Origin: a bacterium
GTDB taxonomy: Bacteria; Sumerlaeota; Sumerlaeia; MVZB01
Reading direction: 5' to 3'
Assembly (NCBI GenBank): GCA_021372575.1
Contig: JAJFUE010000076.1
Location: forward strand, 1 to 61,753
DNA: 61,753 bases
Below the pieces are notes generated by a model. That model had not been told where the DNA came from. It saw nothing but the letters and a program-made list of their open reading frames with translations, and did not search any database. Below are positions 35,251 through 54,585 of the stretch, one piece after another; position 1 is the stretch's first letter; each line of letters begins with the position of its first letter. Position numbers and translations under genes: made by a program.

Positions 35251-35939
35251 GCGCCCCACCGGGGCGCCCGCAAGTAGCCCCCGGCGAAGCAAAGCGCCGC
35301 CGGGGGTTAGCGGTTCGTGAAAATCACGCGCCCCACCGGGGCGCCCGCACCTGCCATCGCAATTCAATCAAACAAATATTTTTCCTCAAACTCCACGCCG
35401 TTCTTCCTCAAGAAATCAATATATTCTTCTTTGAATGATTTCTTCTGATGATGCAGTGCCTGGTTGCGGATGTATGCCATCACACGCGGAACCATCGAAT
35501 GGCTGACTGTGAAAATTCCGCCCCCGGATTGCCAGTAAAAATCCTTATGCCCGTTAAACGTTTTATGTATCCATTTCGTCGAATCCGATTTCATCTCCCG
35601 AACGAGATCCTTGATTGCATCGGTATTCCACCGAACGAGCATATGCACATGATCATTGATCCCGCCGATTTCATATAAAACGCCTCGATGATTACGGATG
35701 ATGCCGCCCAGGTATTCGTATAAGCGCGGCTGGATCTCGGCCGTGATAACCGGCTGCCGGTTTTTGGGTCCAAAAATAATGTGATACAAAATGTTCGTGT
35801 ATGTGTCGGCCATGGCAATGAATTTTATCCTTTCGATCTGGATCGCGTGCGCCCCTCCGGGGCGCATTTTTTCTCGCCCCCTTACCCCCGGCGGCGTTGC
35901 GCTTCGCCGGGGGCTACTCGCTCTCGCCCCGCCGGGGCG
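35251..35939 (-). mobile_element. REP-transposase unit with inverted flanking clusters
   Basis: A transposase gene (35364-35813) framed by two three-hairpin clusters. Left: GCGCCCC/GGGGCGC (35251-35267), a CCCCCGGCG/CGCCGGGGG stem (35275-35309), GCGCCCC/GGGGCGC (35328-35344). Right: GCGCCCC/GGGGCGC (35849-35865), the same CCCCCGGCG stem inverted (35882-35916), CGCCCC/GGGGCG (35925-35939). The two central stems are inverted copies of each other, so the unit is symmetrical, like a BIME/REPIN around a RAYT. Confidence 0.75.
35364..35813 (-). CDS. REP-associated (IS200-like) tyrosine transposase
   Basis: A 149-residue HUH-type single-strand DNA transposase of the Y1/RAYT family. It starts MADTYTNILYHIIFGPKNRQ; the HUH pair is H55-V-H57 (NDHVHMLV) and the nucleophile is Tyr114 (MAYIRNQ), with the Gln four residues later as in active members. 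It would nick and join single-strand DNA at hairpin REPs. The catalytic residues are intact, so it may be active. I used ATG 35813; codons upstream are intergenic. GC is lower than in neighbouring genes. Confidence 0.9.
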   Translation of the reverse strand: MADTYTNILYHIIFGPKNRQPVITAEIQPRLYEYLGGIIRNHRGVLYEIGGINDHVHMLVRWNTDAIKDLVREMKSDSTKWIHKTFNGHKDFYWQSGGGIFTVSHSMVPRVMAYIRNQALHHQKKSFKEEYIDFLRKNGVEFEEKYLFD

Positions 35940-35948
35940 TTTTGTCCG

Positions 35949-37580
35949 TCATTCCCCCAGAACGCGTGCGACGTGCCGCGCGAACGTCCTTTGGCTGATC
36001 TTGAGGCGGCCTTCGGCGATGAGGGCGCGCCAGGCGGCCGAGAGATTCCAGCCCGGCGAGCTCGCAAAACGGTATTGATCGAGATATTTTTTGAGCCGCG
36101 CGGGGTCGGCAAGGATCTCCTCGCCTCCCGTGCGCGATATTTTATCGCGCGCCGGAGTCAGGCGGTGTTCGAGCTCATTGATCAGCCGGCCCAATAAATG
36201 TTCGCGCTCTTCCGGCGCCTCGGCCGGCGGTTCCGGCTCGGCGGCTTCCTGCGCGAGATCGCCGAAATGCCCCGGGCGCAGCATCTGTTCGCCGTCATCG
36301 ATGCAGCGCAAAAACGCCGTCTCCACCGCGGTGATCAGCTCGCGCGTGTTGCCGTTCCAGCGGCAACGCATGAGCAGCGCGCGCGTCTCGTCACTCAGCC
36401 ACGGCGCCGCGACGCCGTGCGCGCGCGCAAGACGCTCGAGATGGATCATCGCGAGCGCAATGATGTCAGCCTGGCGCTCGCGCAGCGGCGGAATGCAGAT
36501 GTGGACCGCCGCCAGCCGGTAATACAGGTCGCGCCGGAACCGGCCGGCCGCGATCTCCGCCGTGAGGTCGCGGTTGGTCGCCGCGATGATCCGCGCGCGC
36601 ACGCGCCGCACCTTCGACTCGCCGACGCGCTGGAAGCGGCCCGTGTCCAGGAATACGAGCAGCTTGGCCTGCATCGGCATCGGCAGCTCGCCGATTTCGT
36701 TCAGGAACAACGTGCCGTCGTGCGCCTCCTCGATGCGGCCGGGCTTGTCGCGGATCGCGCTCGTGAACGCGCCGCGCGCGTGTCCGAACAACTCCGACTC
36801 CCACAGCTCGGGCTGGATCGCCGGGCAATCGATGACGACGAATTCGCCGCCGGCGTGGCTGCCGATCCTGTGCGCCCAGTGCGCGAGGTGATCCTTGCCG
36901 ACGCCGGTCTCGCCCGTGAGCAGCAGGTTGCGGTCGCGGCTCGAGCGGATGCGCGTCATCACGTCCTGCATGGTCGGGCTGACGCCGACCGGGTGCGCGA
37001 GGTCGTCGATCCGCCACGTCGAAGCCGCGGGCTGTTGCGAAACATCCTGGCGCGCGCGCCCAGGCGGCCAGATCCCGCCGGCAACAATCAGGTCCGCCGC
37101 CGCCCACGCGAACATCTGCGCGATCTGGATCGAGTCGGCACAGAACGACGGCAATCCCGGCCGGCGGTTCAGCATGCTCATCACGCCAATGCGCCGCCCC
37201 TGCGCGATCAACGGGCACGTCAACAACTGCCGCGTCTTGCTGTGCAGCAGCCGATCGACGCGCGGGCTGTGGCGCTGGTGGTCGGGCGCGTTCTCGAGGC
37301 TGAACGGGCGGCCCGTCTCGAGGCAGAACCCCGCGACGCCTTCGCCCGGCGCAAGCCGGAATCCCTTGAGCCGGATGTGCGCGTTGTCGAGCGCGAGCAG
37401 GCACGCGACGTCGCCGTCGTTCTGCACGAGCCAGACCGAGCCGCCTTCGCAGCCGAGCAGCTCGGCGCAGCGCGCAAGCAGCCGCCTCAGGCGTTCGACC
37501 GCTTGGCCGCGCCCCGACGGCGGCGCCTGTTCGCGCAGGGTTTCGATGAATAACGTGGCGGCGAGCCGTTCTTCGTTCAT
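35949..37580 (-). CDS. GAF-AAA+ sigma-54 activator-like regulator, divergent motifs
   Basis: A 543-residue regulator. Residues about 20-165 form a GAF sensor domain (PGEGVAGFCLETGRPFSLEN). Residues about 195-430 form a sigma-54-type AAA+ domain: Walker A GETGVGKD (223-230), ELFGHARGAFTSA (GAFTSA at 270-275 instead of GAFTGA), TLFLNEIGELP (Asn294 where the Walker B Asp is usual), IIAATNRDL and FRRDLYYRL arginine fingers. The C-terminus (LSAAWRALIAEGRLKISQRT) may be the DNA-binding helix. ATG 37580 was chosen (AAGGA 9 nt upstream). The divergent gene has a perfect -24/-12 promoter, its likely target. Confidence 0.85.
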   Translation of the reverse strand: MNEERLAATLFIETLREQAPPSGRGQAVERLRRLLARCAELLGCEGGSVWLVQNDGDVACLLALDNAHIRLKGFRLAPGEGVAGFCLETGRPFSLENAPDHQRHSPRVDRLLHSKTRQLLTCPLIAQGRRIGVMSMLNRRPGLPSFCADSIQIAQMFAWAAADLIVAGGIWPPGRARQDVSQQPAASTWRIDDLAHPVGVSPTMQDVMTRIRSSRDRNLLLTGETGVGKDHLAHWAHRIGSHAGGEFVVIDCPAIQPELWESELFGHARGAFTSAIRDKPGRIEEAHDGTLFLNEIGELPMPMQAKLLVFLDTGRFQRVGESKVRRVRARIIAATNRDLTAEIAAGRFRRDLYYRLAAVHICIPPLRERQADIIALAMIHLERLARAHGVAAPWLSDETRALLMRCRWNGNTRELITAVETAFLRCIDDGEQMLRPGHFGDLAQEAAEPEPPAEAPEEREHLLGRLINELEHRLTPARDKISRTGGEEILADPARLKKYLDQYRFASSPGWNLSAAWRALIAEGRLKISQRTFARHVARVLGE

Positions 37581-37590
37581 CACAGCCATC

Positions 37591-37652
37591 CTTTTTGCCA
37601 GAAAAAGACTTTTGGACAACTATGCCGTCAATATTTCCACTGCTGGCAAAAA
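37591..37652. promoter_or_regulatory. Candidate activator-binding inverted repeats
   Basis: A palindrome CTTTTTGCCAGAAAAAG at 37591-37607 and the exact complement of its half (TTTTTGCCAG) as CTGGCAAAAA at 37643-37652. It lies about 97-158 nt upstream of the sigma-54 promoter, the normal range for enhancer sites, and over the 5' leader of the regulator gene. It may be an operator for autoregulation or activation. Confidence 0.4.
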
Positions 37653-37748
37653 AAGCAAATGAAAGTTTCCCCCTCGCGGCGGCTGATGTGTGCGGCCTGA
37701 GTCGATGACGATTGGGGTAATGCGCGCAAACACCGGCGAGATTCGTTG

Positions 37749-37764
37749 CGGCACGCAACTTGCA
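37749..37764 (+). promoter_or_regulatory. Sigma-54 (-24/-12) promoter
   Basis: CGGCACGCAACTTGCA: GG at 37750-37751 and GC at 37762-37763, with the 12-nt distance required for sigma-54 holoenzyme. It matches the TGGCACG-N4-TTGCA consensus at all but the first base. It reads rightward, 136 nt before the coiled-protein gene at 37900, with the regulator divergent. Confidence 0.75.
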
Positions 37765-37899
37765 TAAACATTCCCCGGACGATGAAAACCCGTGCGGCGG
37801 CGCGGCGAATCGCGAAGAGCCAACACAAACCCCACCCACCTTAAAGCTCGATCGATCGCCAAACCGCTGCACGGGTTCTCGTCCACCGGAGGTGATTCC

Positions 37900-38262
37900 A
37901 TGGGACGGATGCCCAAAAACCGCGCGGCCATTGATGCACTGGCCGAGGCGATGATGGCCGGCCTCCTCGCCAACCGCGAGCTTTTCCCGGCCGATCTCTT
38001 CAATCCCGAGCCGCTTGTCATCCTGATCGGCAAAAGCCGCACAATGGCGCTGCGCCGGCGCGAACTGAAACTCGCGCTGCAACGGCTCGACGACGAGGAA
38101 AAACATCTTCACGCGCGCAAAGTCCAGCTCATGCGCCAGCTCATGCGATCGGCCCGATCGTTCTGCAAAGGCGATCCCGCGCGCCTCGCGCTGATCGGCC
38201 TCGACGCCCACCCCCGGCTGCACTCTCCGCAAAATGGACAAACATGCGCCGCGGAGGCATAA
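37900..38262 (+). CDS. Small helical hypothetical protein
   Basis: A 120-residue protein that begins MGRMPKNRAAIDALAEA. GGAGGTGA lies 6 nt before the ATG, a near-perfect ribosome site. Residues about 50-95 are a charged heptad-like stretch (MALRRRELKLALQRLDDEE, KHLHARKVQLMRQL) suggesting a coiled coil. No cysteine motif, signal peptide or membrane segment was seen. I do not recognise a family. It is the first gene after the sigma-54 promoter and 84 nt before the FG-GAP/caspase gene, so it may be an accessory or chaperone to it. Confidence 0.65.
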   Translation: MGRMPKNRAAIDALAEAMMAGLLANRELFPADLFNPEPLVILIGKSRTMALRRRELKLALQRLDDEEKHLHARKVQLMRQLMRSARSFCKGDPARLALIGLDAHPRLHSPQNGQTCAAEA

Positions 38263-38346
38263 TGCTGCAGACTTAAGCCGTAACAAACAGCTTTCTGCCT
38301 GTGGTTGCCGTTCCGGTTTTCAAAATCATCCCGGGAGGACGCTTCA

Positions 38347-41300
38347 ATGCGGACTACACGAATGCAAATGCGTTCATGGGCGATGCTGTCGGCGTTGATT
38401 CAAGTTTCTCTTGCAGTGTCGATCGCGGCGTTCACGACTACCTCCGCGCATGGCGCATGGGAACGCATCGACGAAGGCCACATCAACGGGCAGATTGCGC
38501 AGGCATTCAATGGCGGCATGTCGATTTCCAAGCCGTTTCTGGTCGATTACGATCATGACGGCGACCTGGACCTGTTCGTTGGACGTCACAATGGATCCAT
38601 CCGATTTTATCGAAACGACGGCACGCCGAACCGCGCTTCGTTCACGCTTGCCGATGACCAGTTCCTTGGCATTATCGGCTCATTCAGCGGATCCCAGTTC
38701 GGGTCCCACAATTGCCCCGCGTTGGCCGATATCGACGGCGACGGCGACCTCGACCTGATTTATGGCGAATACACCGGCACGCTCCAGTTTTACCGAAACG
38801 ACGGCAGCCCGACAGCGCCCGTTTATGTTCAGAGCACCCAGTATTTTGGTTCCATCAGCGTAACCGATTTTTCGCAGCCGGTCTTTTGCGACATCGACGG
38901 CGATCAGGATCTCGATCTCTTCGTGGGGTATGGTGTTTATCCCGGAGGGCAATCGGGCGGGATCGCATTCTATCGCAACACCGGCACCGCGACGGCGCCC
39001 AATTTTGTCCAGGACCCTACGATCGCCATCCCGACAACGGGCGCGGATCTGCATCCGACGTTTGTTGATATCGACGGCGACGGCGATCTGGACTGTTTTG
39101 TCGGCGCATACGGCGGCTCGCTGAACTTTTATCGCAACACCGGGTCAAGAACGGCGCCGGTCTTTGTTTCTGAGACCAGCCCGTTGCCTGCTTTCGCGGC
39201 TGATCGTTGGATTTCGCCCACGTTCGAGGATCTGGATCACGACGGCGACATGGATTGCTTTGTCGGCGGCATGTGCGGAAGCATTTTGTATTTCGAGAAC
39301 AAGGGAACTTCATCCGCGCCGGCTTTTGCCGAGCCGACGCTCGACCTGCCCGGTATCAGCTTCGCGCTTGAAGTCGGCGGTTGGGGTTGGGAGCGTGGCA
39401 GCGACAGCGCCCCGGCGCTTGTCGATATCGATGGTGATGGAGATCTGGATCTATTCGCCGGCCATGCCTCTCCCGGCCAGATCTCGTTTTATCGCAACGA
39501 CGGCAGCCCGCAAAACGCGGCGTTCACGTTTGTCACCGACGAATTCGCCGGCATCCATTTCACTTCAAATGCCGTGGACTCCAATTTCGTGCTGAGCCGG
39601 CCGTGCTTCGGCGACATCGACGCCGACGGCGACCTGGATCTGTTCATCGGCAAGGCCGACGGCCACATCATGTTCTATCGCAATGATGGCGCATTAACGT
39701 TCTCGCTTGTCAGTGAACAGTATCTGGATGTTCCGGGCAAAGACGGCAACGGCCGCGCGGTCTGTTCGCCAACCCTGGTCGATTACGACGGCGACGGCGA
39801 CCTCGATTTTGTCGTCGGCAAGCTTGTCGGGATGCCAAGTCCCGGACCGATCTACCTGTTCCGCAATCACGGCACGGCAACATCGCCATCTTTTTCCGGT
39901 TACGAGGATACCGGCGTTACGATCCCCACCGGTTCATTCCCCAAGCCGGCGTTTTGCGACATCGACCGCGACGGAGACATGGACCTGTTCGTCGGCGTCG
40001 GTCAGGCCACGTCGGGCGTCGATCGGATCATGTTCTATCGCAATACCGGATCGGCCACGTCGCCTGCATATACCCTTGAGGACGACCAGTATGCTTCAAA
40101 CGAAGCAAACTATAACTGGCCCTCGCCGGAGTTCGGCGACCTGAACGGCGACGGCGATCCGGACCTGCTCGTCGGTTACGTGGAGGGCGGCCTCAATTTC
40201 TACCAGAACACGGCGCCGCACCTGCTCGTGCGTCCGGCATCGGTCACACTTGTTTCGGGCCAGTCGATTGATTTTGAAACGACCGGCACGATTTCGGGAC
40301 TGGTGACATGGCATTTTGTGGACAACCGAAGCTCGGGCACGCTGAATACGATGACAGGCCAATATTCCGCAGGCGCCGCCAATCACGTGATCGATTCGAT
40401 CGAGGCGCGCGATTCGAGCGGGACGCTGGGGCGGGCTTATGTGAACGTGATTTCGGCGGGCCAGCTTGCAGCGTCGGGGAAGGCGGTCGTGATGGCGGGG
40501 CGCAAGGCCGGTGACACGCTGTGGCCGGCGACCAACTCCCTGGCGCACTCGATCTACCGCACGCTCCTGTATCGCGGCTTCTCCAAGGCCAATATTCATT
40601 ACCTCAACCCCATCGCGGCGCAGGATGTCGATGGCGACGGCGACGCGGGCAACGACATCGCGGCCCCATCGTCACTCGCCAATTTTGAATCGGCGATGAA
40701 CACGTTCGCGCCCGGCAGCCCCAACCTGCTCGTGTACCTGATCGATCACGGCGACGCGCTCAACGACGGCACGCTCGGCTTCGTGCGCTGCAACGAAACC
40801 GACGTGCTCTACGCGAGCCAGCTCAAGACCATGCTCGACGACCTGCAAGCCAACCACGGCGTCACCACCGTCACGCTCGTCGTCGATTGCTGCCGGTCGG
40901 GCTCGTTCCTGCGAACCGTTTCAGGCGCGCCGGCCGGCAAGGCGCGCGTCGTCATCACATCGGCCGGGGCCAGCCAGCCTGCGTTTTTCTCCGCGGGCGG
41001 CCTCATCTCGTTCACCAACAGCATGGTCACGAGCATTTACTCGGGGCTGCCGCTCGGCCAGGCGTTCCGGCTCGCGGCCGGCGCGATGGACCGCTACCAA
41101 CAGCCGGCGCTCGACGACACCGGCGACGGCATCTACAACCGCGACGAAGACCTGGCGATCGCCGACCGCATGACCATCGGCGCGACATTCATCGCCGGCG
41201 CCGACCGGCCGCAGATCGGAACCATCTCGCCGAACCAGACGCTCACGAGCGGCACGCAATCGGCCACGATCTGGGCCGCCGACGTCAGCTCGGCGTATCC

Positions 41301-42747
41301 GATCGAGCGCGTGTGGGCAACGATCGCCGCGCCCAATTTCATCCCGCAATCGCAGGCCGATCCGGGCCAGCCTGTCACCGGGCTTCCCACGCTCGAACTC
41401 GCATGGAACAGCGGCAACAACCGCTACGAGACGACGACCAACGCGCTCGCCGAGCTCGGCGCATACACGGTCAACCTTTACGCGCAGGACATCTGGGGCG
41501 GCGTGTCGTATCCCAAGCAGACCTACATCAACCAGACCGCCTCGGACGAGCGGATGATCATCGTCTGCGGCGACGGAGCGTATGACTCGAACTCGCCGTG
41601 GGCCAACAGCAGCTATCTCGCGGGCGAGGTGTATCAGACGGCGCTCGCGCGCTGGTTCACGCCCGAGCGCGTCGCGTACTTGAGCAGCGCGACCGGACCG
41701 GGCGTCGATCAGCCGCCGACGAAGGCGAATCTGCAATCGGCGATCGCGGCGGCGGGCTCAGCGAAGCTCACGATCTATCTCGTCGGGTGCGGCAATGTGG
41801 CCGCCTTCGACATCGACGGCGACGGTGCCGACGCCGACGATCTCCCGCCGGCCGAGCTCAAGGGCTGGCTTGACGGCCTACAGTCGGGCGGCTCGATATC
41901 GGTCACCGTCGTGCTCGACTTCAACCAGTCCGGCGCGTGGCTCGGCGGGCTCATCGCGCCGGCCGGCAGGCAACGCGTCGTGATCGCGTCGTGCGGCGCG
42001 GGCGAGGCCTCGTGGTGCGAGGAGGGCGGCATGCTCTCGTTCTCGCAGTGGTTCTTCAACAAGCTGTTCAACGGCGTCAACCTGCGCGACGCGTTCGCGA
42101 GCGCGCGCTCGGCGATGCGCACCATGTCGTTCGAGGCCCAGAACGCCCAGATCGACGACGACGGCTCGGGGACTTCGGACTGGCGCGACGGCGCGCTTGC
42201 CTCGGCGATGTATCTCGGCGCGGCGTTCGTGACCGGCGGCGATCCGCCCACGATCGGCGACTTCGCGCGGTTCGCGTTCGTGACGTCGAATACGGGCCTC
42301 CTGTGGGCCAGCGGCGTTCACGCCGGCGCGGGCATCAGCGAAGTCTTCGCCTACGTCATCCGCCCCGGCTCCACGCCCGTCCAGGACCGCATGGAGAAGG
42401 TCGGCCTGGCTTACAACAGTTCCACGAGCCGCTGGGAAGCGACTTACACCAACTTCGACCCGAGCGGCTTGAACACCGTGATTTATTACGCACGCGACAA
42501 TGAGGGGAACCTCTCCGAGCCGCAGTCGCTGCTCGTTGACCCCGGCCTGATCTGGGTGAATTTCAGCCAGACCGGCGCCGAATACGGGACGCAGGCGAAT
42601 CCGTTCAACACGCTCGTCGAAGGCGTGTGGGCGGTGAACTCGGGCGGGACGGTGCGGATTTTCAGCGGCTCGGCCGCCGGCGCGATCCGGATCACCAAGC
42701 CGACGCGCGTCGAATCGCACGGCGGAACGGCCACGATCGGGCGATGA
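38347..42747 (+). CDS. Secreted FG-GAP/VCBS protein with tandem C13-type caspase-like domains
   Basis: A 1466-residue secreted protein; GGGAGGAC precedes the ATG. After a signal peptide (about 1-32) come about ten FG-GAP repeats with D-x-D-x-DGDxD calcium loops (residues 50-620), then a first clan CD (C13/caspase-like) protease domain (about 710-930) with the dyad His801 in YLIDHGDA and Cys849 in VVDCCRSGSF. A second similar domain (about 1065-1310) has Cys1148 (YLVGCGNV) and Asn1193 (VVLDFNQSGAW) at those places, so it should be inactive. Residues 1401-1466 are a C-terminal domain also found on the next protein. It probably binds calcium and cleaves or binds proteins outside the cell. Confidence 0.85.
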   Translation: MRTTRMQMRSWAMLSALIQVSLAVSIAAFTTTSAHGAWERIDEGHINGQIAQAFNGGMSISKPFLVDYDHDGDLDLFVGRHNGSIRFYRNDGTPNRASFTLADDQFLGIIGSFSGSQFGSHNCPALADIDGDGDLDLIYGEYTGTLQFYRNDGSPTAPVYVQSTQYFGSISVTDFSQPVFCDIDGDQDLDLFVGYGVYPGGQSGGIAFYRNTGTATAPNFVQDPTIAIPTTGADLHPTFVDIDGDGDLDCFVGAYGGSLNFYRNTGSRTAPVFVSETSPLPAFAADRWISPTFEDLDHDGDMDCFVGGMCGSILYFENKGTSSAPAFAEPTLDLPGISFALEVGGWGWERGSDSAPALVDIDGDGDLDLFAGHASPGQISFYRNDGSPQNAAFTFVTDEFAGIHFTSNAVDSNFVLSRPCFGDIDADGDLDLFIGKADGHIMFYRNDGALTFSLVSEQYLDVPGKDGNGRAVCSPTLVDYDGDGDLDFVVGKLVGMPSPGPIYLFRNHGTATSPSFSGYEDTGVTIPTGSFPKPAFCDIDRDGDMDLFVGVGQATSGVDRIMFYRNTGSATSPAYTLEDDQYASNEANYNWPSPEFGDLNGDGDPDLLVGYVEGGLNFYQNTAPHLLVRPASVTLVSGQSIDFETTGTISGLVTWHFVDNRSSGTLNTMTGQYSAGAANHVIDSIEARDSSGTLGRAYVNVISAGQLAASGKAVVMAGRKAGDTLWPATNSLAHSIYRTLLYRGFSKANIHYLNPIAAQDVDGDGDAGNDIAAPSSLANFESAMNTFAPGSPNLLVYLIDHGDALNDGTLGFVRCNETDVLYASQLKTMLDDLQANHGVTTVTLVVDCCRSGSFLRTVSGAPAGKARVVITSAGASQPAFFSAGGLISFTNSMVTSIYSGLPLGQAFRLAAGAMDRYQQPALDDTGDGIYNRDEDLAIADRMTIGATFIAGADRPQIGTISPNQTLTSGTQSATIWAADVSSAYPIERVWATIAAPNFIPQSQADPGQPVTGLPTLELAWNSGNNRYETTTNALAELGAYTVNLYAQDIWGGVSYPKQTYINQTASDERMIIVCGDGAYDSNSPWANSSYLAGEVYQTALARWFTPERVAYLSSATGPGVDQPPTKANLQSAIAAAGSAKLTIYLVGCGNVAAFDIDGDGADADDLPPAELKGWLDGLQSGGSISVTVVLDFNQSGAWLGGLIAPAGRQRVVIASCGAGEASWCEEGGMLSFSQWFFNKLFNGVNLRDAFASARSAMRTMSFEAQNAQIDDDGSGTSDWRDGALASAMYLGAAFVTGGDPPTIGDFARFAFVTSNTGLLWASGVHAGAGISEVFAYVIRPGSTPVQDRMEKVGLAYNSSTSRWEATYTNFDPSGLNTVIYYARDNEGNLSEPQSLLVDPGLIWVNFSQTGAEYGTQANPFNTLVEGVWAVNSGGTVRIFSGSAAGAIRITKPTRVESHGGTATIGR

Positions 42748-42876
42748 GTGAACAAATGAGCGAATCATCCGCGGCTCGCCATGTGGCGGTTAAATTCCTC
42801 ATGGACAAACCTGTTGCCGAATATCATCATTCCCGAATTGATTTAGATGTAAATAAATGACGAGGAAGTGCGCATT

Positions 42877-45800
42877 ATGTGCCGACCGCTGCTGCTCTGC
42901 CTTCTTGTCGCGTTCTGTTCTCAGATCACAGCCCTGTGCGCGGGGCCTGACCGTGCGCCCAGAGCCGACGGACAGATACTCGTGCGGTATCGGCCCGGGA
43001 TCCTGTCCGCCACAGACCAAAAGAAAAGCAAACCCGATTCGATCGGCGCGCTTGAAAAGAAATTCGGCCTCAAGAAAACGCGCCGGCTCGGATTCGATTC
43101 GGCCGGCCGAATCGGCTCGAAACAAAATGAAGTGGCGCTTAGGAATCCGAATCGCGCAACGCGCAGGCTCGTGCAATCGATCGAGGTCGTCGAGTTCGGG
43201 AGCGGCGCGGATTTGAACGAAATCATTAAGGAATACCGCAAGAACCCGCTGGTCGTGAGCGCCGAGCCCAACTACACGTATCGGATGGCGCTCACGCCGA
43301 CCGATCCATATTACAGCGCCAACCAGTCCGACGATTTCGGCTACGTCGGGCTGCCCGCGGCGTGGAATGTTCAAACAGGATCGCCGTCGATCATCGTCGC
43401 GGTGATCGATTCGGGCTGCGACATCCTGCACGAGGACCTGGCGGCGGCCGTTTCAGCCGCGCATTGGGACTTTGTCGATGACCACGCCGATGTAACCGAC
43501 GACCAGGGCCACGGCACGCGCGTCTGCTCGATCATCGGCGCGCAAGGCAACAACGGCAAGGGCATGGCCGGCGCGGCGTATGGCGTCACGATCCTGCCGC
43601 TGGACGTCGTCGCGGCTGACGGCACGATTTCGAATGCCGACGTGATCGAGGCGCTCGACTACGCGGTCGCCCAGGGCGCATCGGTGATCAACATGAGTTT
43701 CGCCGCGACGGGCCGATCGGACCTGCTGGCCTCGGCGATCGCCACGGCGTCGCAGTCGGCGGTGCTCGTGGCTGGCGTCGGCAACGATGGCCGCAACGAC
43801 CGGCCAATGTATCCGGCCGCCTATGACGGCGTGATCGGCGTGGCGGCATGCGTCGATGGCGCTTCGACCCGCGCGGATTTCTCCAATTACAACGGCCCGA
43901 CGGTGACGATGTGCGACCTGGCCGCCCCCGGCGTGACGGTCTTCGGCGCAACCCCCGGCAACCAGTACGACGGCGTTTACGCCAGCGGCACGAGCTTCGC
44001 CACCCCCATCGTCTCCGCCGCCGCGGCCTTACTTATGTCGCAAAATCCTGGTATGTCACCCGGAGCAATTGCACAGCATCTACAATCCACGGCAAATCCT
44101 TCGGCAAGGAGCTACACGAACCATGGATTGCTCGCAGTCGATAACGCGCTCAATACACCGATGAGGCCATTATTACGTGTAGCGAAGATCATTGTGGACG
44201 ATCGCCCGGCCTATTCAGCTAGCAACAATGGAGACGGCACACTTGATAAAGGAGAAACGGTACGTCTGGCAATCAAGCTTGCCAATGACGGCGCAGATTG
44301 CAACGCAACCACGGCCACGCTCACAACGACCGATACGCTTGTCACGATTGCGGATACGACAGGGGCATGGGGTTCGATCGCTTACGACGCGGAGACGACG
44401 GGGACGAACGATTTCTTAAACATCGGCATCAGTGCCGTAGCGCTCGCCCACGACGTATATTTCAGCCTGGCGACATCGGTGGTCTGTACAAATGGAACTG
44501 TCTTCGCCCAGGATATCTCATTCAGCTTGCCGGTCACAAATACCCATACTCCGCCGACAATTATCATGGAGGACTCCATCTGGACCAGCGATACGACCTA
44601 TATTGTCAATCAAAATACAATTATCTTTAACAGTGCGAAGCTCACAATCCAACCCGGAACAATGATCAAATTTGGTTTATCCGGCGGGTTGGAAGTTCGG
44701 GGATCGATCGATGCAAATGGAACCGCCCAGAATCCAATAACGCTAACCTCGATCACGATGAAACCAAGCGGTGGCTTTGATCCTTATGTCAGCATTTCTG
44801 TGGGCGATCGTCCATATTGGGTCGTTGTCGCCGACGCCGATAGCGACGGTGACAACGACATTCTTTCTGCGAATGTATGGTCAAACACGATTTCGGTATT
44901 CCGCTGGAATGAGACGTCGTTTGATACCGAAATTCAGCTACCATGCGTGGGCTGGCCGTCCTGCGTTGCCGTTGGCGATGCAGACGATGACGGCGACAAT
45001 GATATCGTCGTCTCGACCGCCTTTATAAACCAGGTATCATTGATACGATGGAATGGTACCGGATATGATCCGGAAACCCGCATTGCGGCCGGAGACCAGA
45101 CAGAGTGTGTGTTCTTGGGAGACGCCGACAACGATGGCGATAATGATATCGTAACGGCGAACCATGGTTCGAACGATGTGTCGATCATTCGATGGAACGG
45201 TACAGGCTTTGATGCGCATGTACGACTTGTGGCAGGCTCAGGGCCATTTTCTGTTGTCGTTGCCGATGCCGACAATGACGGCGACAACGATATTGTTGTA
45301 TCAAACCGATATTCAAACGACGTGTCATTGATTCGTTGGAACGGAAGCGGTTTTGATCCGGATGTAAGATTTGCTACGGGTGAAGGCTCTCAACCAGTTT
45401 CCGTGGCTGTTGCTGATGTAGATCATGATGGTGATAATGACATCGTCACAGCGAATCGCAATACTAACGACCTGACATTATTACGATGGAATGGCACTGA
45501 ATTTGATTCCGGGCTTCATCTAGCCGCGGGCGGCGGACCGAATTCCGTCGCGATTACCGACATTGATCAGGACGGCATTACCGACATCCTGGCATCTAAC
45601 CTGACAACTAACGATGTCTCATTTTTGCGCGGAAACGGCACATCCTATAATTTAGCAATAAGCATTCCAACCGGGCCGTGTCCGGATTGTTTAAACGCTG
45701 GGGACGCAAACAATGATGGCGTTAATGAAATTCTAACAACAAGCAGAGATTATGACAGCGTCTCGATTATAAAATTTAACGATTCGCTGGGTAGGGATTC

Positions 45801-48399
45801 CGCCTACAAACCATCATGGATTCGCGATACCACAACCCATGCCGTGTTTTCCCATTGCATATTCCAGTTTGCCCCTGTTCTTGACGAATGCGCTATTACA
45901 TCCTTCAGCGATTGCGTCTTCGACCGGACCGGTGGCTGCAGCCTGTCTTCAATCAATGGTACCAATCCGATCATTCGTTGCACGGTGACCGGGAATGGCG
46001 GTGGCGATGGGATTCAGGCTGGCAGTAAAGCATTGATCAGTTGCATGGCCGCGGGAAACGACGGGAGCGGATTAGTTGGCGGATCGGCTACTGGATGTTC
46101 AGCCACAAATAATGCTGGCAAAGGAATTCATGTGGCAGGCGATGCAACACAGTGCATAGCTAAAGAAAATGGCGATGTCGGAATTGATGCAAGCGGACAA
46201 GTTAACAGTAGCACGGCGGTGGATAACGATGGCGCCGGGATCAGTGCCACGGGACAAGTTTCGAAGTCGACCTCATCAAATAACGGTGAGGCAGGAATCC
46301 GATCCGCCAATTCAGTTAATGAATGTAATTCACGATTTAATGTTTTCGGTATCATCTGCAATGGAGATATTACCTCCTCGACCGCTGCAAACAACAGTGG
46401 GATTGGCCTGCAGAGCGGCGGCATCATCACCAACGCGACGGCAACTGATAATGGCGGCGCTGGGGCCGTGGCGAACAATATCACAGATACCTACCTTGCC
46501 AACAATGGAGCAGGCCTGTCGCTTTCTGGGACGGCGACGCGGGCATATATCGCCGGTAACACAGGCGATGGTGTGCTTGGAGGAAATGTCGCAACCAGCG
46601 CAGTCATTGGCAATAGTGGTGACGGGATCAAAAATTCTTCATCAGTAAATGGTAGCTGGGCCATCAACAATCAGGGCGACGGAATCGATGGTGCGGGGAG
46701 CGTCATGCGAACAACGGTAAAATTCAACCAAGGCGCAGGGATTCGGGGAACATCCTCCAGCCCATGGACAACAATTACCGATTCGATTATCCGGGAGAAT
46801 GCAAGCCATGGCTCCATTGCAACGGGGGCAATTTGCGGCTCGATACTGGAAGGCAACGATACTGCTGCCACCGGTTCGAAATACGATTACTACGAGTCTC
46901 GCGGCAGTTCATTAATTACTCAGGTTAATGTTGGCGGGAATTGGTGGGGCGTCGCAACAACAGCCGAGATGAGCGCAGATCCTTATCCCGGTTACATCAC
47001 CCGCATTTACGATTTCTTCGATGATACAAACCTCACAGCAGCGAATTACTCGAACTATTTATTAGGGGAGCCGCAGGGCAACATTGGCGCCGATGCCAGC
47101 ACACCGGCCTTCCTGCTTTCAGTTTCGCCAAACACGGCTAATACGGTCAATGCTGGCCGAGTCACGTTCACGCTCACGTTCAGCGAACACATGAACACAT
47201 CCATCCAGCCGACGGTCACGTTTGATCTTGGCGCGCCTTACACCAAGAATGTCGTCGTTGCCGATCCGGGGTGGGTCGATTCAACCACTTGGCGGGGCAG
47301 CTTTGCGGTCGATGTCAATACCGGCGACGGCACGCACACCATCCGCGTATCGGGCGCTCGGTCCGCCGACGGCTTCGACATCCCCGACGACACAACGCAC
47401 AAGTTCACGGTCGATACGAGCGGCGGGACGATCGCCAACAACGGCATCGCGACGATCCTGGGCTCGACGCAGGTATCGATTCAGTGGGACAGCGCGGGGG
47501 CGACGCTCGGCGGCCTGTGCGCAATGACCATCACGCCCACGGCCGGCTTCAACGTGCTGCGCTCGACGACTGGCGCGCCCGGCAGCTACCGCCAGATCAA
47601 CGCCTCGCTCATCCCCAACTCCGGCGGGCCGAAAACGACGTATCTCGACTCGACGCTCACGGCCGGAACGCAGTATTACTGGCTCGTCTATCGCGTCGAT
47701 ACAAGCGGCAACAGCGAGGTGTGGAGCGGCCCGCTCTCCAACACGATCGCCGAGGTGGACGTGAAGGACGGCTCCACGCAAATCCCCGACGGCGGCGGCC
47801 CGGTCAACGTCGGCGCGGCGATGCAAGGCGGCGCTGCGGTGACGAAAACGTTCACTGTCTATAACTACGGCTACGCGACGCTCTCGACGTCGAACCTGTC
47901 GGTCGGCGCGCCGTTCACGATCACCGAGGGCCTCGCGGCGACGATTCCGGCGGGCGGCTCGGACTCGTTCACGGTTTCGCTGCCGACATCGACGGCCGGC
48001 GCGTTCAGCGCCGCGGTCTCGTTCACAACCAGCGATGCCGACGAGAACCCGTACAACTTCACGATCACGGGCCGCATCGAGGCGGTCGATGCGGGCCTCG
48101 TCTGGGTGAAGTTCAATTACAGCGGAGCCGAATTCGGAACGCAATCGTTCCCGTTCAACACGCTGCCCGAGGGCGTCGCCGCCGCGAATACCGGAGGCAC
48201 GGTGCGCGTCTATGCCGGCTCGACGCCCGGCTCATTCCGCATCACGAAGCGGTCGCGGCTCGAGTCCTACGGCGGCATCGCCCACATCGGCCGCGCGGCC
48301 GGCCTCAACTCGGGCTCAGAGGATCAGGACGGCGCGACACCCAACGGCACAACAATCCGCCGCCGCACCGCCACGCGGAACTGGGTGCTGTATCGATGA
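42877..48399 (+). CDS. Multidomain subtilase (S8) with FG-GAP, beta-helix and Ig-like domains
   Basis: A 1840-residue secreted protease. After a signal peptide (MCRPLLLCLLVAFC) and a propeptide (about 30-125) comes an S8 domain with Asp178 (VIDSGCD), His212 (DDQGHGTRV), Asn303 (AGVGND) and Ser373 (ASGTSFATP), all present. Then a CARDB-like segment, FG-GAP repeats (about 630-960), a right-handed beta-helix (about 1020-1360), a bacterial Ig-like domain, FN3, a choice-of-anchor D domain (about 1630-1740) and the C-terminal domain shared with the caspase-like protein. ATG 42877 is preferred to GTG 42868 because GAGGA is 10 nt upstream. GC falls sharply between about 44030 and 47150, so the gene is a mosaic. 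Confidence 0.87.
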   Translation: MCRPLLLCLLVAFCSQITALCAGPDRAPRADGQILVRYRPGILSATDQKKSKPDSIGALEKKFGLKKTRRLGFDSAGRIGSKQNEVALRNPNRATRRLVQSIEVVEFGSGADLNEIIKEYRKNPLVVSAEPNYTYRMALTPTDPYYSANQSDDFGYVGLPAAWNVQTGSPSIIVAVIDSGCDILHEDLAAAVSAAHWDFVDDHADVTDDQGHGTRVCSIIGAQGNNGKGMAGAAYGVTILPLDVVAADGTISNADVIEALDYAVAQGASVINMSFAATGRSDLLASAIATASQSAVLVAGVGNDGRNDRPMYPAAYDGVIGVAACVDGASTRADFSNYNGPTVTMCDLAAPGVTVFGATPGNQYDGVYASGTSFATPIVSAAAALLMSQNPGMSPGAIAQHLQSTANPSARSYTNHGLLAVDNALNTPMRPLLRVAKIIVDDRPAYSASNNGDGTLDKGETVRLAIKLANDGADCNATTATLTTTDTLVTIADTTGAWGSIAYDAETTGTNDFLNIGISAVALAHDVYFSLATSVVCTNGTVFAQDISFSLPVTNTHTPPTIIMEDSIWTSDTTYIVNQNTIIFNSAKLTIQPGTMIKFGLSGGLEVRGSIDANGTAQNPITLTSITMKPSGGFDPYVSISVGDRPYWVVVADADSDGDNDILSANVWSNTISVFRWNETSFDTEIQLPCVGWPSCVAVGDADDDGDNDIVVSTAFINQVSLIRWNGTGYDPETRIAAGDQTECVFLGDADNDGDNDIVTANHGSNDVSIIRWNGTGFDAHVRLVAGSGPFSVVVADADNDGDNDIVVSNRYSNDVSLIRWNGSGFDPDVRFATGEGSQPVSVAVADVDHDGDNDIVTANRNTNDLTLLRWNGTEFDSGLHLAAGGGPNSVAITDIDQDGITDILASNLTTNDVSFLRGNGTSYNLAISIPTGPCPDCLNAGDANNDGVNEILTTSRDYDSVSIIKFNDSLGRDSAYKPSWIRDTTTHAVFSHCIFQFAPVLDECAITSFSDCVFDRTGGCSLSSINGTNPIIRCTVTGNGGGDGIQAGSKALISCMAAGNDGSGLVGGSATGCSATNNAGKGIHVAGDATQCIAKENGDVGIDASGQVNSSTAVDNDGAGISATGQVSKSTSSNNGEAGIRSANSVNECNSRFNVFGIICNGDITSSTAANNSGIGLQSGGIITNATATDNGGAGAVANNITDTYLANNGAGLSLSGTATRAYIAGNTGDGVLGGNVATSAVIGNSGDGIKNSSSVNGSWAINNQGDGIDGAGSVMRTTVKFNQGAGIRGTSSSPWTTITDSIIRENASHGSIATGAICGSILEGNDTAATGSKYDYYESRGSSLITQVNVGGNWWGVATTAEMSADPYPGYITRIYDFFDDTNLTAANYSNYLLGEPQGNIGADASTPAFLLSVSPNTANTVNAGRVTFTLTFSEHMNTSIQPTVTFDLGAPYTKNVVVADPGWVDSTTWRGSFAVDVNTGDGTHTIRVSGARSADGFDIPDDTTHKFTVDTSGGTIANNGIATILGSTQVSIQWDSAGATLGGLCAMTITPTAGFNVLRSTTGAPGSYRQINASLIPNSGGPKTTYLDSTLTAGTQYYWLVYRVDTSGNSEVWSGPLSNTIAEVDVKDGSTQIPDGGGPVNVGAAMQGGAAVTKTFTVYNYGYATLSTSNLSVGAPFTITEGLAATIPAGGSDSFTVSLPTSTAGAFSAAVSFTTSDADENPYNFTITGRIEAVDAGLVWVKFNYSGAEFGTQSFPFNTLPEGVAAANTGGTVRVYAGSTPGSFRITKRSRLESYGGIAHIGRAAGLNSGSEDQDGATPNGTTIRRRTATRNWVLYR

Positions 48400-48404
48400 A
48401 ACCA

Positions 48405-48432
48405 TGGACGATTCTGATGAATTTGTTATAAA
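48405..48432 (+). promoter_or_regulatory. Candidate sigma-70 promoter of the cyclase-TPR gene
   Basis: TGGACG (48405-48410), a 16-nt spacer and TATAAA (48427-48432), ending 43 nt before the ATG at 48476. It begins right after the subtilase stop codon, so the regulator may have its own transcript. Confidence 0.35.
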
Positions 48433-48475
48433 ATTTCACCCGCAACCAAGGCGATACGAGAGAAGGGTTTGAACC

Positions 48476-51400
48476 ATGAGCCAGGTAGTCTGTCCTGTAT
48501 GCGGAGAACCGCTCAAGTCCGCCGTGGCGGGCTCGTGCGCCGAGTGCGGGGCATTATTGACAGACGAGATTCTGCAGAATGCGCGCGCCGCCGCGGCCCA
48601 GATCCCGAAGCCGCAGCCTGCCGAGCCGGCTCCCGAGCCGACCGAAACCGAGGAGCTCATCGAAGCCTTCCGCGCACAGTTCGAACGCCACCAGATTTAC
48701 CTGCCGCGCTCGTGGACGAAACGGCTTGAGCGCCTTGCCGCCGAGGCCGAAACCAGCCGCCGCCAGGCGATGGTCTTCTTCGTCGATTTGCGCGGCTACA
48801 CGGCGCTCGCCCAGAAACTCAGCGAAAAACAGCTCGACTCGCTGCTCCAGTGGTTCTATGGCCTCTGCACGCGCCACGTGGAACGCCACGGCGGATTCGT
48901 CATCCAGCTCGTGGGCGACGCCGTGTTTGCGGCGTTCGGCGCACCGTGGGCGTTCGAGCGCGACGCCGAGTCCGGCCTGCGCGCGGTCCTGGAAATTCGC
49001 GACGAGGTGCGAGCCAAGGGCAACTTCGAGGGCTATCCGCTTGCCGTCCGCGCCGGTGCGGACTGCGGCACGGTCAACGTGCGCCTCGACACGATTCACG
49101 GTCAGCGCCGGCCCGATCTTGTCGGCTCAACGGTGAACCTGGCGGCGCGGCTGCAGGCCGCCGCCGAGACGTGGGAAATCCTCGTCTCCGACACGCTCGC
49201 CGATCAGGTGCGCGGCATCTTCAACATGGAGGCGCGCCCGCCGTTCGTGCCGAAAAATTTCCACCGCGAAGTGCAGCCGTGGTCCGTCACGGGTCACCGT
49301 TTGCAGGACGCCGTCCGGCGCCGGCAGGACCTGCGCTTCGTCGGCCGCGTCGAGGAGCTCAACCGCCTCCTGGCCGCGATCGACGAAACCAGCCGCGGCG
49401 GCTGCCGCATGATCAGCCTCAGCGGCGAAGCCGGCGTCGGCAAGACGCGCCTGGTCCGCGAGGCATTCAGCCGCGTCGATCCGGCGCGCATCGCAACGGT
49501 CTCGGTCGATTGCGAACCGCACTACCGCTACGCGCTTTTGCAGACCATGCTGGACCTGATCGCCGCGCTCACGCGGCCCGGTGAGCCGTCTTCCGATCCC
49601 GCGGCAAGGCTGGCCGCCGTCGCCGCGCTCTGTTCGGAACTCGACCCCGCCGTGTTGCCGAGCATCGGCTACGTGCTTGGCGTCGAGCCGCATGCCGGCG
49701 CGTTGCGCGCGCTGCCCGGGCCGCAACTTCGCCGGCAGATCGTGGCCAGCCTGGCCGCGCTGATTAAGGCCGCGGCGCACGCGAAGCCGCTCGTGCTGTT
49801 CATTGACGACGCCCAGTGGATCGACCGGGTGTCGTGGGAAGTTTTCGAGCGGCTCTTCGAGGAACGCCCCGCGGGGCTGATGCTGATCGTGACCGCACGG
49901 CCGCAGCCCGAATCCAACCTGCCCGACGATTTCAACGTCGCCCTGCTGCTCGAGGAAGGCCCGCTGGAAAAGATGACGCTGCGCGCGCTGCCCGATCCCG
50001 AGTTGCGCGAGTTGCTCAACCAGATTCTCGACCTGGACCGGCTTCATCCGCTGGTCCGGCGGCGGCTCCTGAGCGAGACCGAGGGCATTCCGCTCTACCT
50101 CATCGAGCTGGCGCGCTGCATCGAGGAACAGCAGCAATTGCCGCTCGCCGAGGCGCTCGCGCACGATCATCCCGGCGGCCCCACCCCGCACATCCCGCCG
50201 GTCGTGATCGAGGTCATGCAGGCGCGCATCGACAACCTTCAGGCGCAGCGGCGGGCAATCCTGCAATGCGGCGCCGCGCTGGGCCGGCGATTTTCCCAGC
50301 GGCTCATCCAGGTCTTCGAGTCGATCTACCCGGCGCTCCTCGCCGAGCTGTTCGCGCTCAAGGGCATGCAGATGCTCGAGGACCAGCCACTCCCAAACGA
50401 CATCGAATATTTCTTCACGCCCACGCTGCTGCGCGACGTCGCCTACCATATGATGACGGCCGACCAGCAGGTGCGGCTGCACCGGCGCGTCGCCGAGCTC
50501 ATCGAGGAATTTTTCCCCGAGCGCGCCGACCAATTCGCCTTCGAGCTGGCCGTGCACTGGATGCGCGCCGGCGACATGCAGCGCGCGCGCTGTTTTTTGC
50601 GCCGCGCAAGCCGGCAATCGATCGGCCGCGGCGCGCCGCAGGAAGCCTACGAGCTGGTGCTCCAGGCGCTCGAATCGTTCGCCGACGGCCAGCCGATCCC
50701 AAGCGGGCCGCTTTCGCCGCAAATGCTTCTCGACGTCCAGCAGCGCGGCATTATCGAGCAGCTTGCCGGCCAGGCCGGCCGGATGCTCGGCCAATACAGC
50801 GAATCCGACATTCACTTCCAGAAATTCCTCGAGATCGCACGCGTGATCGGGAACGAACAGTGGCTCGCGCGCGCCCATTTCGAGCTCGCCGGCAACGCCG
50901 TGGAACGCGGCGAGATGGACAAGGCCAGCGGCCTGCTCGACCTCATCGGGGATGCCAACCCCGGCAGCCCGCTCCACAACGTCACGCACAACCTGCGCGG
51001 CATGATCAAGCTGCGAACCGGCAAAGTGGATGGCGCCATCGAGGAATTCCGCGCCATCGCCGAGCTCATGCAGGAGGAATCCGGCTCCGTCGCCGACGCG
51101 TGGAACAACATGGGCCTCGTGTTCTGGATGCAGGGGCGCCTGCAGGAATCCGAGGCCTCGTTCGGCCGCGCGCTCGACATCTGGCGGCGCATCGGCCAGC
51201 CGTTCGGCGAGGTCGCCACCGAGTCCAACCTCGGCATCATCGCGGAAAAACAGGGCCGCCACGGCCTCGCCGAGCGCCATTACGCGCGCGCGCTCGAAAC
51301 CGCCGAGTCGATCGGCTATCTGCACGGCATCTCGGCGATCGAGGCGAACCTTGCGAACCTCGCTCTGCTGCGGCGCGATTTCGAGGAGGCCCGCCATCGC

Positions 51401-51916
51401 TCGGCGCGCTCGCTTCAGTCCGCACGCATGATCGGCCATCGCAACTCCGAGGCCATCGCGCTCGAGAACCTCGGCCTCGCGTTCGGGGCCCAAGGCCTGT
51501 TCGATGAAGCGCTCGCCTCGTTGGCCGAGGCCGAAGGCGTGTCGGAAAAAACGGGCGATCCCGAGCGCCGCGACTCGGCGCGCCTCGCCCGGGCGTGGAT
51601 CGCGCTGCTCAACCGCAAGTGGGATTTATGCCGCTCAACGGTCGAAACGCTCCCGGACGAAATCGGCGCGGACCTTCGCTCGTGGCGCGAATCGATGCTG
51701 CTCGCGTTGGATCTCGTCGGCGGCAACCGCGCGCCCTCATCCGACGACCTGGACCGCCTCGACGACCTTCAGAAAACCGCCTCGACCGAGGATTACCTGC
51801 GCCACATCGACGCGCTGACGGCAGCCTCGGCCAGCGCCGGCGCCAACGATCTCGTGACGACGCTGCATCAACGCCGCGCCGACGCCATGGACATCGCTGC
51901 GGTCGGCGGGATGTAA
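48476..51916 (+). CDS. Zinc-ribbon / class III cyclase / AAA ATPase / TPR signalling protein
   Basis: A 1146-residue cytosolic protein. A zinc ribbon (C6, C9, C21, C24) is followed by a class III nucleotide-cyclase domain (about 95-270) with metal residues Asp104 and Asp148 and the transition-state pair Asn221 and Arg225. The substrate Lys usual in the KxxGD motif is Gln144 (IQLVGDAV), so ATP specificity or activity is in doubt. Then a STAND-like ATPase (Walker A GEAGVGKT at 317-324, Walker B LVLFIDDAQW) and a long TPR array to the end. The layout matches guanylate/adenylate cyclase-AfsR hybrids. It may sense a partner through the TPRs and signal by nucleotide. Confidence 0.87.
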   Translation: MSQVVCPVCGEPLKSAVAGSCAECGALLTDEILQNARAAAAQIPKPQPAEPAPEPTETEELIEAFRAQFERHQIYLPRSWTKRLERLAAEAETSRRQAMVFFVDLRGYTALAQKLSEKQLDSLLQWFYGLCTRHVERHGGFVIQLVGDAVFAAFGAPWAFERDAESGLRAVLEIRDEVRAKGNFEGYPLAVRAGADCGTVNVRLDTIHGQRRPDLVGSTVNLAARLQAAAETWEILVSDTLADQVRGIFNMEARPPFVPKNFHREVQPWSVTGHRLQDAVRRRQDLRFVGRVEELNRLLAAIDETSRGGCRMISLSGEAGVGKTRLVREAFSRVDPARIATVSVDCEPHYRYALLQTMLDLIAALTRPGEPSSDPAARLAAVAALCSELDPAVLPSIGYVLGVEPHAGALRALPGPQLRRQIVASLAALIKAAAHAKPLVLFIDDAQWIDRVSWEVFERLFEERPAGLMLIVTARPQPESNLPDDFNVALLLEEGPLEKMTLRALPDPELRELLNQILDLDRLHPLVRRRLLSETEGIPLYLIELARCIEEQQQLPLAEALAHDHPGGPTPHIPPVVIEVMQARIDNLQAQRRAILQCGAALGRRFSQRLIQVFESIYPALLAELFALKGMQMLEDQPLPNDIEYFFTPTLLRDVAYHMMTADQQVRLHRRVAELIEEFFPERADQFAFELAVHWMRAGDMQRARCFLRRASRQSIGRGAPQEAYELVLQALESFADGQPIPSGPLSPQMLLDVQQRGIIEQLAGQAGRMLGQYSESDIHFQKFLEIARVIGNEQWLARAHFELAGNAVERGEMDKASGLLDLIGDANPGSPLHNVTHNLRGMIKLRTGKVDGAIEEFRAIAELMQEESGSVADAWNNMGLVFWMQGRLQESEASFGRALDIWRRIGQPFGEVATESNLGIIAEKQGRHGLAERHYARALETAESIGYLHGISAIEANLANLALLRRDFEEARHRSARSLQSARMIGHRNSEAIALENLGLAFGAQGLFDEALASLAEAEGVSEKTGDPERRDSARLARAWIALLNRKWDLCRSTVETLPDEIGADLRSWRESMLLALDLVGGNRAPSSDDLDRLDDLQKTASTEDYLRHIDALTAASASAGANDLVTTLHQRRADAMDIAAVGGM

Positions 51917-54584: not shown

Positions 54585-54585
54585 C

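Follow-up and report, generated by a model that had tools for sequence, protein, structure and literature searches.

A candidate operon of exported proteases and a cytosolic signalling protein, under probable sigma-54 control, in Candidatus Sumerlaeota

Next to nothing has been learned about the ways in which the uncultured phylum Sumerlaeota interacts with its surroundings. A sequence-only reading of the window (the whole stretch of DNA that was analysed, 61,753 nt from a Candidatus Sumerlaeota genome) had proposed that a cluster of genes for secreted proteases, lying behind a sigma-54 promoter and beside a signalling ATPase gene, forms a joint system gated by a divergent GAF–AAA+ regulator. 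The genes, domains, −24/−12 promoter and common C-terminal domain that it described are all in place (Table 1).

Table 1. Features of the locus and the promoter of its paralogue; positions are those of the window unless a contig is named.
Feature	Position	Strand	Remarks
Regulator: GAF, Sigma54_activat and AAA_lid	35949..37580	−	Open frame to 37619 (TTG)
10-bp perfect inverted repeat, TTTTTGCCAG ... CTGGCAAAAA	37592–37601 ... 37643–37652		
−24/−12 (sigma-54) promoter, CGGCACGCAACTTGCA	37749–37764	+	One mismatch to TGGCACGNNNNTTGCW
Small protein, 120 aa	37900..38262	+	No known family
Secreted FG-GAP protein with legumain/caspase-fold pair, 1466 aa	38347..42747	+	
Caspase-like domain 2	41533–42528	+	C1148 and N1193 at catalytic positions
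C-terminal domain of FG-GAP/caspase-like protein	42544..42744	+	Ends at stop codon
Secreted subtilase, 1843 aa	42868..48399	+	Prodomain, S8, FG-GAP repeats, Ig-like region, C-terminal domain, WxLY tail
C-terminal domain of subtilase	48094..48294	+	
NWVLYR C-terminal motif of subtilase	48379..48396	+	Instance of (N)AAxxWxLY[REKQ]-COOH signature
Zinc-ribbon, class III cyclase-like (Guanylate_cyc), AAA_16 ATPase and TPR protein, 1146 aa	48476..51916	+	Cytosolic
Promoter of caspase-like paralogue, CGGCATGCAATTTGCA	G000:C92:30943–30958	−	About 150–170 nt upstream of open frame

The FG-GAP protein had been described as carrying tandem caspase-like domains. Both are present and homologous to each other, but only the first retains its catalytic residues: the H801/C849 pair of domain 1 is kept in nearly all of 20 homologues, whereas in domain 2 Cys and Asn stand in place of the His and Cys, and the pair is lost in the homologues as well. 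By sequence and conservation, domain 2 is a predicted pseudo-enzyme partner of domain 1. A match to PF01650 (E = 2.4e-6) and a structure model of the pair (pLDDT 84.6), for which the best Foldseek hits in the PDB are legumain, asparaginyl ligases and GPI transamidase (E down to 2.3e-8, for legumain/AEP), assign the pair a predicted fold of legumain type (C13, clan CD) as opposed to C14. The signal peptide and FG-GAP repeats indicate that the protein is probably exported. Animal pseudo-caspases act as regulators, and the fusion of an active protease to a conserved dead copy raises the question of whether the dead half here is a built-in regulator.

The neighbouring subtilase has an intact S8 triad (D181/H215/S376; PF00082, E = 4.5e-45), in a region that aligns to deseasin MCP-01. 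Intact catalytic residues and signal peptides in both proteins suggest extracellular proteolysis by the locus. The two proteins end in a common C-terminal domain, as had been noted, with copies 62% identical. This domain proved to be a genome-wide module of 21 copies, barely found outside the host's family, and so is not a locus-bound co-occurring feature and does not identify a system peculiar to this locus; most of its genes have no sigma-54-like site upstream. A structure model of the domain, built with AlphaFold from two sequences, reached a pLDDT of 40 and was discarded. Searches of NCBIfam gave no match of the subtilase's C-terminal region to a type IX secretion (T9SS) C-terminal sorting domain (E up to 5) and no PEP-CTERM motif at the C-terminus. 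The WxLY signature that closes the subtilase occurs on exported proteins phylum-wide.

The caspase-like gene is present in 12 of 40 genomes, and it is the cyclase–ATPase–TPR gene that accompanies it. The two lie on the same strand, with the ATPase–TPR gene no more than two genes away, at seven loci in six families (the window, L159, L163, L165, L166, L207 and L210), against about 0.07 expected (P about 2e-12, in a calculation that ignores shared ancestry); many of the relatives' contigs are short. Gene order varies among these loci, which are scattered over several deep branches on one side of the ATPase–TPR tree. The ATPase–TPR gene is found in 11 of the 12 genomes with the caspase-like gene and in 6 of the 28 others (P = 5e-5). 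The expected co-occurrence of these two genes in related genomes is thus borne out, and it points to a real partnership, in which the cyclase–ATPase–TPR protein would be a conserved companion of legumain-type proteases in Sumerlaeota. The family also adjoins other secreted proteins and pilin-like genes and is therefore not protease-specific. At the named loci from other phyla, no ATPase–TPR gene was found in the vicinity of the caspase-like gene. A literature search found no paper on cyclase–ATPase–TPR proteins with secreted proteases. The subtilase is a less constant neighbour, adjoining the caspase-like gene at one other locus (L191) and the ATPase–TPR gene, with overlapping frames, at one (L229). 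The cyclase domain of the window protein keeps its metal-binding Asp residues (D104 and D148) together with D214 and the transition-state residues N221 and R225, and has Gln144 for the substrate Lys. One homologue (L159) has a degenerate cyclase domain, so it is uncertain that the family signals through a second messenger.

The four rightward genes all lie on the plus strand. The three gaps between them measure 84, 120 and 76 nt and contain no terminator-like site on that strand; this arrangement is consistent with a single transcript. The small protein at its head matches nothing in Pfam or NCBIfam, has no homologue among 40 relatives and is missing from the paralogous transcript described below, so that it is peculiar to this locus and was rejected as a conserved part.

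The case for sigma-54 control is built on a paralogue. A second caspase-like gene, on contig C92, is 67% identical to the window copy, and the two promoters, which both fit GG-N10-GC with TGGCAC/TTGCW context, agree at 14 of 16 positions at similar distances from their genes. Outside the promoters, the two upstream sequences cannot be aligned, and the flanking DNA is unrelated. The chance of a one-mismatch site within 220 nt is about 0.002. The promoter had been called textbook, and it is present in the place claimed, but the word by itself does not rise above chance: the genome has two exact matches to YGGCACGN4TTGCW where about 2.2 would be expected, and one-mismatch words number 78 against 131 for the reversed pattern, so such genome-wide counts are uninformative. 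The promoter's weight therefore comes from its position and from the matching promoter of the paralogue. No gene among the 21 that encode the C-terminal domain has a comparable site upstream of its own open frame except the one on C92; another (C31) has a weaker candidate, and the window's promoter stands upstream of the small gene. The genome encodes RpoN and about 21 activators. Together these observations support sigma-54 control of the locus, as the sequence-only reading had it. Within the phylum such a promoter is seen in this genome only: where the start of a caspase-like locus is intact in other Sumerlaeota, no convincing sigma-54 promoter precedes it. The inverted repeat upstream is, tentatively, a candidate activator-binding site. 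TTTTTGCCA is found also upstream of the paralogue's promoter; the repeat may be a chance one, because part of its left arm falls within what is probably the ribosome-binding site of the regulator gene.

Which activator would work at this promoter is less clear. The divergent regulator (probable start at the ATG at 37580, judged from sequence) has a strong AAA+ domain (PF00158, E = 3.8e-56) with Walker A GETGVGKD and R-fingers FRRDLYYRL, and a short C-terminal tail with a weak DUF5338-like match only. Its Walker B reads LFLNEI for LFLDEI, making it the one Asn among 47 readable activators (Asp in the 46 others), and GAFTGA has become GAFTSA. These two changes make the regulator a doubtful activator of the locus and weaken the claim of gating by it, the divergent gene itself being present as described. 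Given the change in its ATPase site, the promoter may be served by a different activator, out of roughly 20 in the genome, with or without it. On this alternative, to which we assign a minor but appreciable probability, an activator acting in trans would run a regulon that takes in the promoter and the two protease genes, and the divergent protein would be decaying or purely modulatory, for instance as a subunit that mixes into another activator's hexamer or restrains it. The paralogue on C92, which has the promoter and no adjoining regulator gene, fits this alternative, and rings of PspF that include a hydrolysis-defective subunit still function (PMC4132715). Against it, the regulator gene is intact, divergent and directly adjoining, the usual position of a cognate activator; Walker A and the R-fingers are retained; and GAFTSA recurs in two activators of related genomes whose Walker B is normal. 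Conservation does not make the regulator a member of the locus: no activator gene was seen at the other caspase-like loci of the phylum, and at the named loci the one activator-like gene lies several genes from the caspase-like gene (L198).

The remaining alternatives concern what the proteases are for. The resemblance of the fold to asparaginyl ligases and GPI transamidase, the 21-copy domain and the WxLY signature on exported proteins would all suit a surface transpeptidase that, like a sortase, trims C-terminal signals and anchors exported proteins in place of degrading them. PorU, which belongs to the clan's gingipain branch, plays this role in type IX secretion (PMC8545088, PMC4560394). 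We consider this unlikely: the distributions differ, the domain being bound to the host's family, the signature phylum-wide and the caspase-like gene confined to its minority of genomes, and the caspase-like gene itself encodes the domain at its own end. Similarly improbable is a chance neighbourhood of separately controlled, nutrient-scavenging exoenzymes with a generic cyclase–ATPase regulator. The rarity of the subtilase–caspase adjacency would be expected of it, but dedicated control is favoured by the matching of the two sigma-54 promoters and by an ATPase–TPR adjacency far more frequent than chance would give. Conflict systems are known to pair a STAND-type ATPase–TPR protein with a protein of caspase fold, and an NLR-like sensor that releases a caspase in cell death or anti-phage defence would fit this and a weak similarity to Pycsar cyclases; the signal peptide and FG-GAP repeats of the caspase-like protein, and a PADLOC search that returned weak domain-level matches and no anti-phage system, leave this reading very little room.

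The locus is most likely an inducible operon of exported legumain and subtilisin with its own intracellular sensor ATPase. We give about even chances to the explanation in which sigma-54 switches on exported proteolysis together with a signalling protein that works inside the cell. From the genes, domains, catalytic residues, promoter pair and conserved adjacency, which can be read in the DNA itself, we infer how it would work. RNA polymerase with RpoN would stand poised at the promoter until a triggered enhancer-binding protein opened it, yielding a transcript of about 14 kb for the small protein, the legumain-type FG-GAP protein (a cysteine protease fused to its own inactive duplicate), the subtilisin and the cytosolic cyclase–ATPase–TPR protein. 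The legumain-type gene on C92 would be induced jointly through its matching promoter. The two proteases would work outside the cell or at its surface, and the ATPase–TPR protein would remain inside, where it would probably sense or regulate the production or export of the proteases and not act on what they cleave. The proposal of controlled joint proteolysis thus keeps its footing in the caspase–ATPase–TPR co-occurrence and the sigma-54 promoter, and loses the regulator, the small protein and the C-terminal domain as locus-bound members. More speculatively, and with distinctly less confidence, Sumerlaeota may possess a dedicated inside–outside module, under sigma-54 in some lineages. In it, a cytosolic zinc-ribbon, cyclase-like, STAND-type ATPase–TPR protein would be encoded together with a legumain-type surface protease that carries its own dead copy, and would control how this protease is produced or exported; the phylum's exported proteins would also bear an undescribed C-terminal WxLY signal. 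The promoter pair (which predicts jointly induced genes), the recurrent partnership of cytosolic ATPase and exported protease, and the C-terminal signature each offer a testable handle.

Several known systems resemble the locus in part. Sigma-54 as a controller of the cell exterior was described by Francke et al. (2011, PMC3162934), with activators, about 10% of which have GAF, beside genes for the exterior; the emphasis there is on polysaccharide, flagella, LPS and lipoproteins, with no legumain or subtilisin operons. In Aquincola (PMC9850573), too, a −24/−12-driven gene for an exported protein, pepA, lies beside a TPR-protein gene, prsT, and exported proteins have a common C-terminal module; the proposed activator is the PrsK–PrsR two-component pair, protease and cyclase–ATPase are missing, and the module is PEP-CTERM, unlike the Sumerlaeota domain. 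The TOMM kinase/cyclase fusion family (TIGR03903), the best NCBIfam match of the ATPase–TPR protein, likewise joins a cyclase to a large ATPase region, but the window protein falls far below its cut-off (205.6 versus 705.75 bits) and has no kinase domain. Type IX secretion with the PorU sortase similarly combines a clan CD peptidase with large exported proteins sharing a C-terminal domain, here of a kind that its sorting models do not match. Bacterial orthocaspases (C14) have the clan CD fold and include pseudo-variants without the catalytic pair (PMC6426788), whereas the window protein matches C13 in sequence and predicted fold and places active and dead copies in one chain. Family C13 itself, with legumain, the asparaginyl ligases and GPI transamidase, shares the fold and the catalytic His and Cys; the Sumerlaeota protein differs in being a predicted exported, multidomain bacterial member, in tandem with its own pseudo-enzyme copy.

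The locus lies in a 4.63 Mb, 96% complete genome, and the named genomes with contigs homologous to the window belong to Candidatus Sumerlaeota. Its genes and domains were found as the sequence-only reading had described them. The four rightward genes are separated by 84, 120 and 76 nt, gaps in which no terminator-like site was seen on the plus strand. The small protein was seen at no other caspase locus of the phylum.

Features of the window
Feature	Position	Strand	Description
Exported protein	26483-29185	-	ends in WxLY signature
Exported protein	29249-32083	-	ends in WxLY signature
Transposase-like gene	35364-35867	-	IS200/IS605-type Y1, adjoins regulator; possibly domesticated single copy
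Regulator	35949-37619	-	GAF, Sigma54_activat and lid domains; start likely ATG at 37580, preceded by ribosome-binding site
Promoter word	37749-37764		CGGCACGCAACTTGCA; right of regulator
Small protein			follows promoter; 120 aa; no known relatives
FG-GAP protein	38347-42747	+	predicted exported; two caspase-like domains
Subtilase			predicted exported; follows FG-GAP protein
C-terminal domain plus WxLY tail	48094-48396	+	also at L142 and L149
WxLY signature	48379-48396	+
ATPase-TPR protein	48476-51916	+	zinc-ribbon/cyclase-like/AAA_16/TPR; no signal peptide; last rightward gene
M56 peptidase and repressor	52083-55017	-	BlaR1-like and BlaI-like; convergent to operon

Profile and fold evidence both place the caspase-like pair with family C13: Pfam Peptidase_C13 matches at E 2.4e-6, and an AlphaFold model of the domain pair, built from 20 sequences (mean pLDDT 84.6), finds its best PDB matches in legumain, asparaginyl ligases and GPI transamidase. 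Domain 1 retains H801 and C849; in the homologous domain 2 (34% identity) the catalytic pair positions hold C1148 and N1193. The pair is likewise missing from domain 2 of homologues in Sumerlaeota, Verrucomicrobiota, Kiritimatiellae and Lentisphaerae, so the order of active copy first and dead copy second is old and conserved. The subtilase triad is intact. In the Lentisphaerae genome GWF2_57_35 (L191:5033-13636) a subtilase gene stands directly 5' of a caspase-like gene, the window's pairing in another phylum.

Across 40 Sumerlaeota genomes, 12 have caspase-like genes and 17 encode full ATPase-TPR proteins (28 copies). At seven loci from six families both genes stand on one strand within two genes of each other, against ~0.07 such cases expected by chance (P ~2e-12), and ATPase-TPR genes are present in 11/12 genomes with the caspase-like gene versus 6/28 without (P 5e-5), both figures ignoring shared ancestry; the proposed co-occurrence in related genomes thus holds for this pair. 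Order varies (caspase, subtilase, ATPase-TPR in the window; ATPase-TPR, dockerin/cohesin protein, caspase at L159; caspase, ATPase-TPR at L163; ATPase-TPR, caspase at L165, L166, L207 and L210) and the loci occupy several deep branches on one side of the ATPase-TPR tree, which speaks against inheritance as one block. Elsewhere, ATPase-TPR genes adjoin different exported proteins (subtilase, beta-helix, kelch-like) or pilin-like genes, and at L229 a subtilase gene overlaps the ATPase-TPR gene by 4 nt. By a crude test, signal peptides are enriched among close same-strand neighbours (14/22 versus 59/150 background pairs, P 0.04). Given such varied, signal-peptide-enriched neighbours, the family is probably a general partner of exported proteins, of which C13 proteases are the commonest. 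Among the key residues of its cyclase domain only the substrate lysine is lost, but in the L159 homologue the domain is degenerate, which makes it uncertain that the protein produces a messenger. In several relatives (L226, L228, L235, L237, L160 and L162) type IV pilin-like genes (FTLIELL...) adjoin ATPase-TPR or caspase-like genes, possibly a sign of export that depends on pseudopilins.

The C-terminal domain shared by the FG-GAP protein and the subtilase matches nothing in Pfam or NCBIfam and mostly terminates at the stop codon. With 21 copies in the genome it was rejected as a mark of the locus; two copies in a family relative, and only weak, single, partial matches in two other genomes, mark it as a lineage-specific module of many exported proteins. 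Exported proteins also carry a C-terminal signature, A-x-x-W-x-[LVF]-[YF]-x-stop (typically RNAAxxWxLYR), without an NCBIfam match. The genome has 20 matches against 2 with the pattern reversed; 19 of the 20 are convincing open-frame ends, and most of those whose N-terminus is readable have a signal peptide. The phylum-wide count is 218 (70 reversed). We consider it a candidate for an undescribed sorting signal. All three domain proteins with tails of at least 26 aa (the window subtilase and those on contigs C178 and C170) end in it, consistent with a domain plus optional tail. The two large exported proteins that lie side by side at 26483-29185 and 29249-32083 on the minus strand both end DYLNAARQWE[WC]YE and look like tandem paralogues.

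Taken alone, the promoter word does not stand out: the genome has two exact copies where ~2.2 are expected, and sites with one mismatch show no enrichment relative to the pattern reversed. What raises the proposed sigma-54 promoter above chance is its fitting position and orientation between divergent genes, together with the promoter of a second caspase-like gene (contig C92, 67% identical), where CGGCATGCAATTTGCA lies ~150-170 nt upstream of the open frame; the chance of a one-mismatch site within 220 nt is ~0.002. Nothing else in the two upstream regions can be aligned, so the promoters have persisted as the sequence around them drifted. The genome has rpoN and ~21 activator genes. Among the 21 genes with the shared domain, a strong site lies directly upstream in C92 alone, with a weaker one on contig C31. 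No such site precedes the caspase-like genes of other Sumerlaeota whose starts could be read, so sigma-54 control looks locally acquired.

Whether the adjacent regulator activates this promoter is uncertain. Its Walker B reads LFLNEI, where all 46 other activators with a readable motif have Asp, and its sigma-54-contact loop reads GAFTSA in place of GAFTGA, a loop shared with two activators of relatives, both with normal Walker B. GAFTGA alterations can abolish activation (PMC3162934). In PspF, the Walker B mutant E108Q is still able to remodel the polymerase complex despite its poor hydrolysis, and rings of mixed subunits function (PMC4132715, in which we found no discussion of Asp to Asn at the first acidic residue). 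An activator acting in trans, with or without the regulator in its ring, is a live alternative. The regulator had been counted a member of the locus, a view weakened by the phylum's other caspase loci, where no activator gene was seen.

From the directly observed gene content, catalytic residues, promoter pair and adjacency we infer transcription, export, activity and sensing: sigma-54 induction would co-transcribe the operon, a legumain-type enzyme and a subtilisin would be exported for proteolysis, and a cytosolic sensor ATPase would regulate their production or export. We consider this the likeliest reading and hold it at about even confidence. The fold makes a sortase-like role for the legumain-type protein attractive, but the shared domain, the WxLY signature and the caspase-like gene differ in their distributions, and we think it improbable.

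Our literature search, partial in coverage, returned no description of this gene combination or of the Sumerlaeota C13/ATPase-TPR partnership. The separate parts are all of known kinds, and sigma-54 governing the cell exterior is a known theme (PMC3162934). The closest curated family to the ATPase-TPR protein is the TOMM kinase/cyclase, at a score far under cut-off. The nearest described arrangement is in Aquincola, where an RpoN-dependent PEP-CTERM gene stands beside the TPR gene prsT (PMC9850573).
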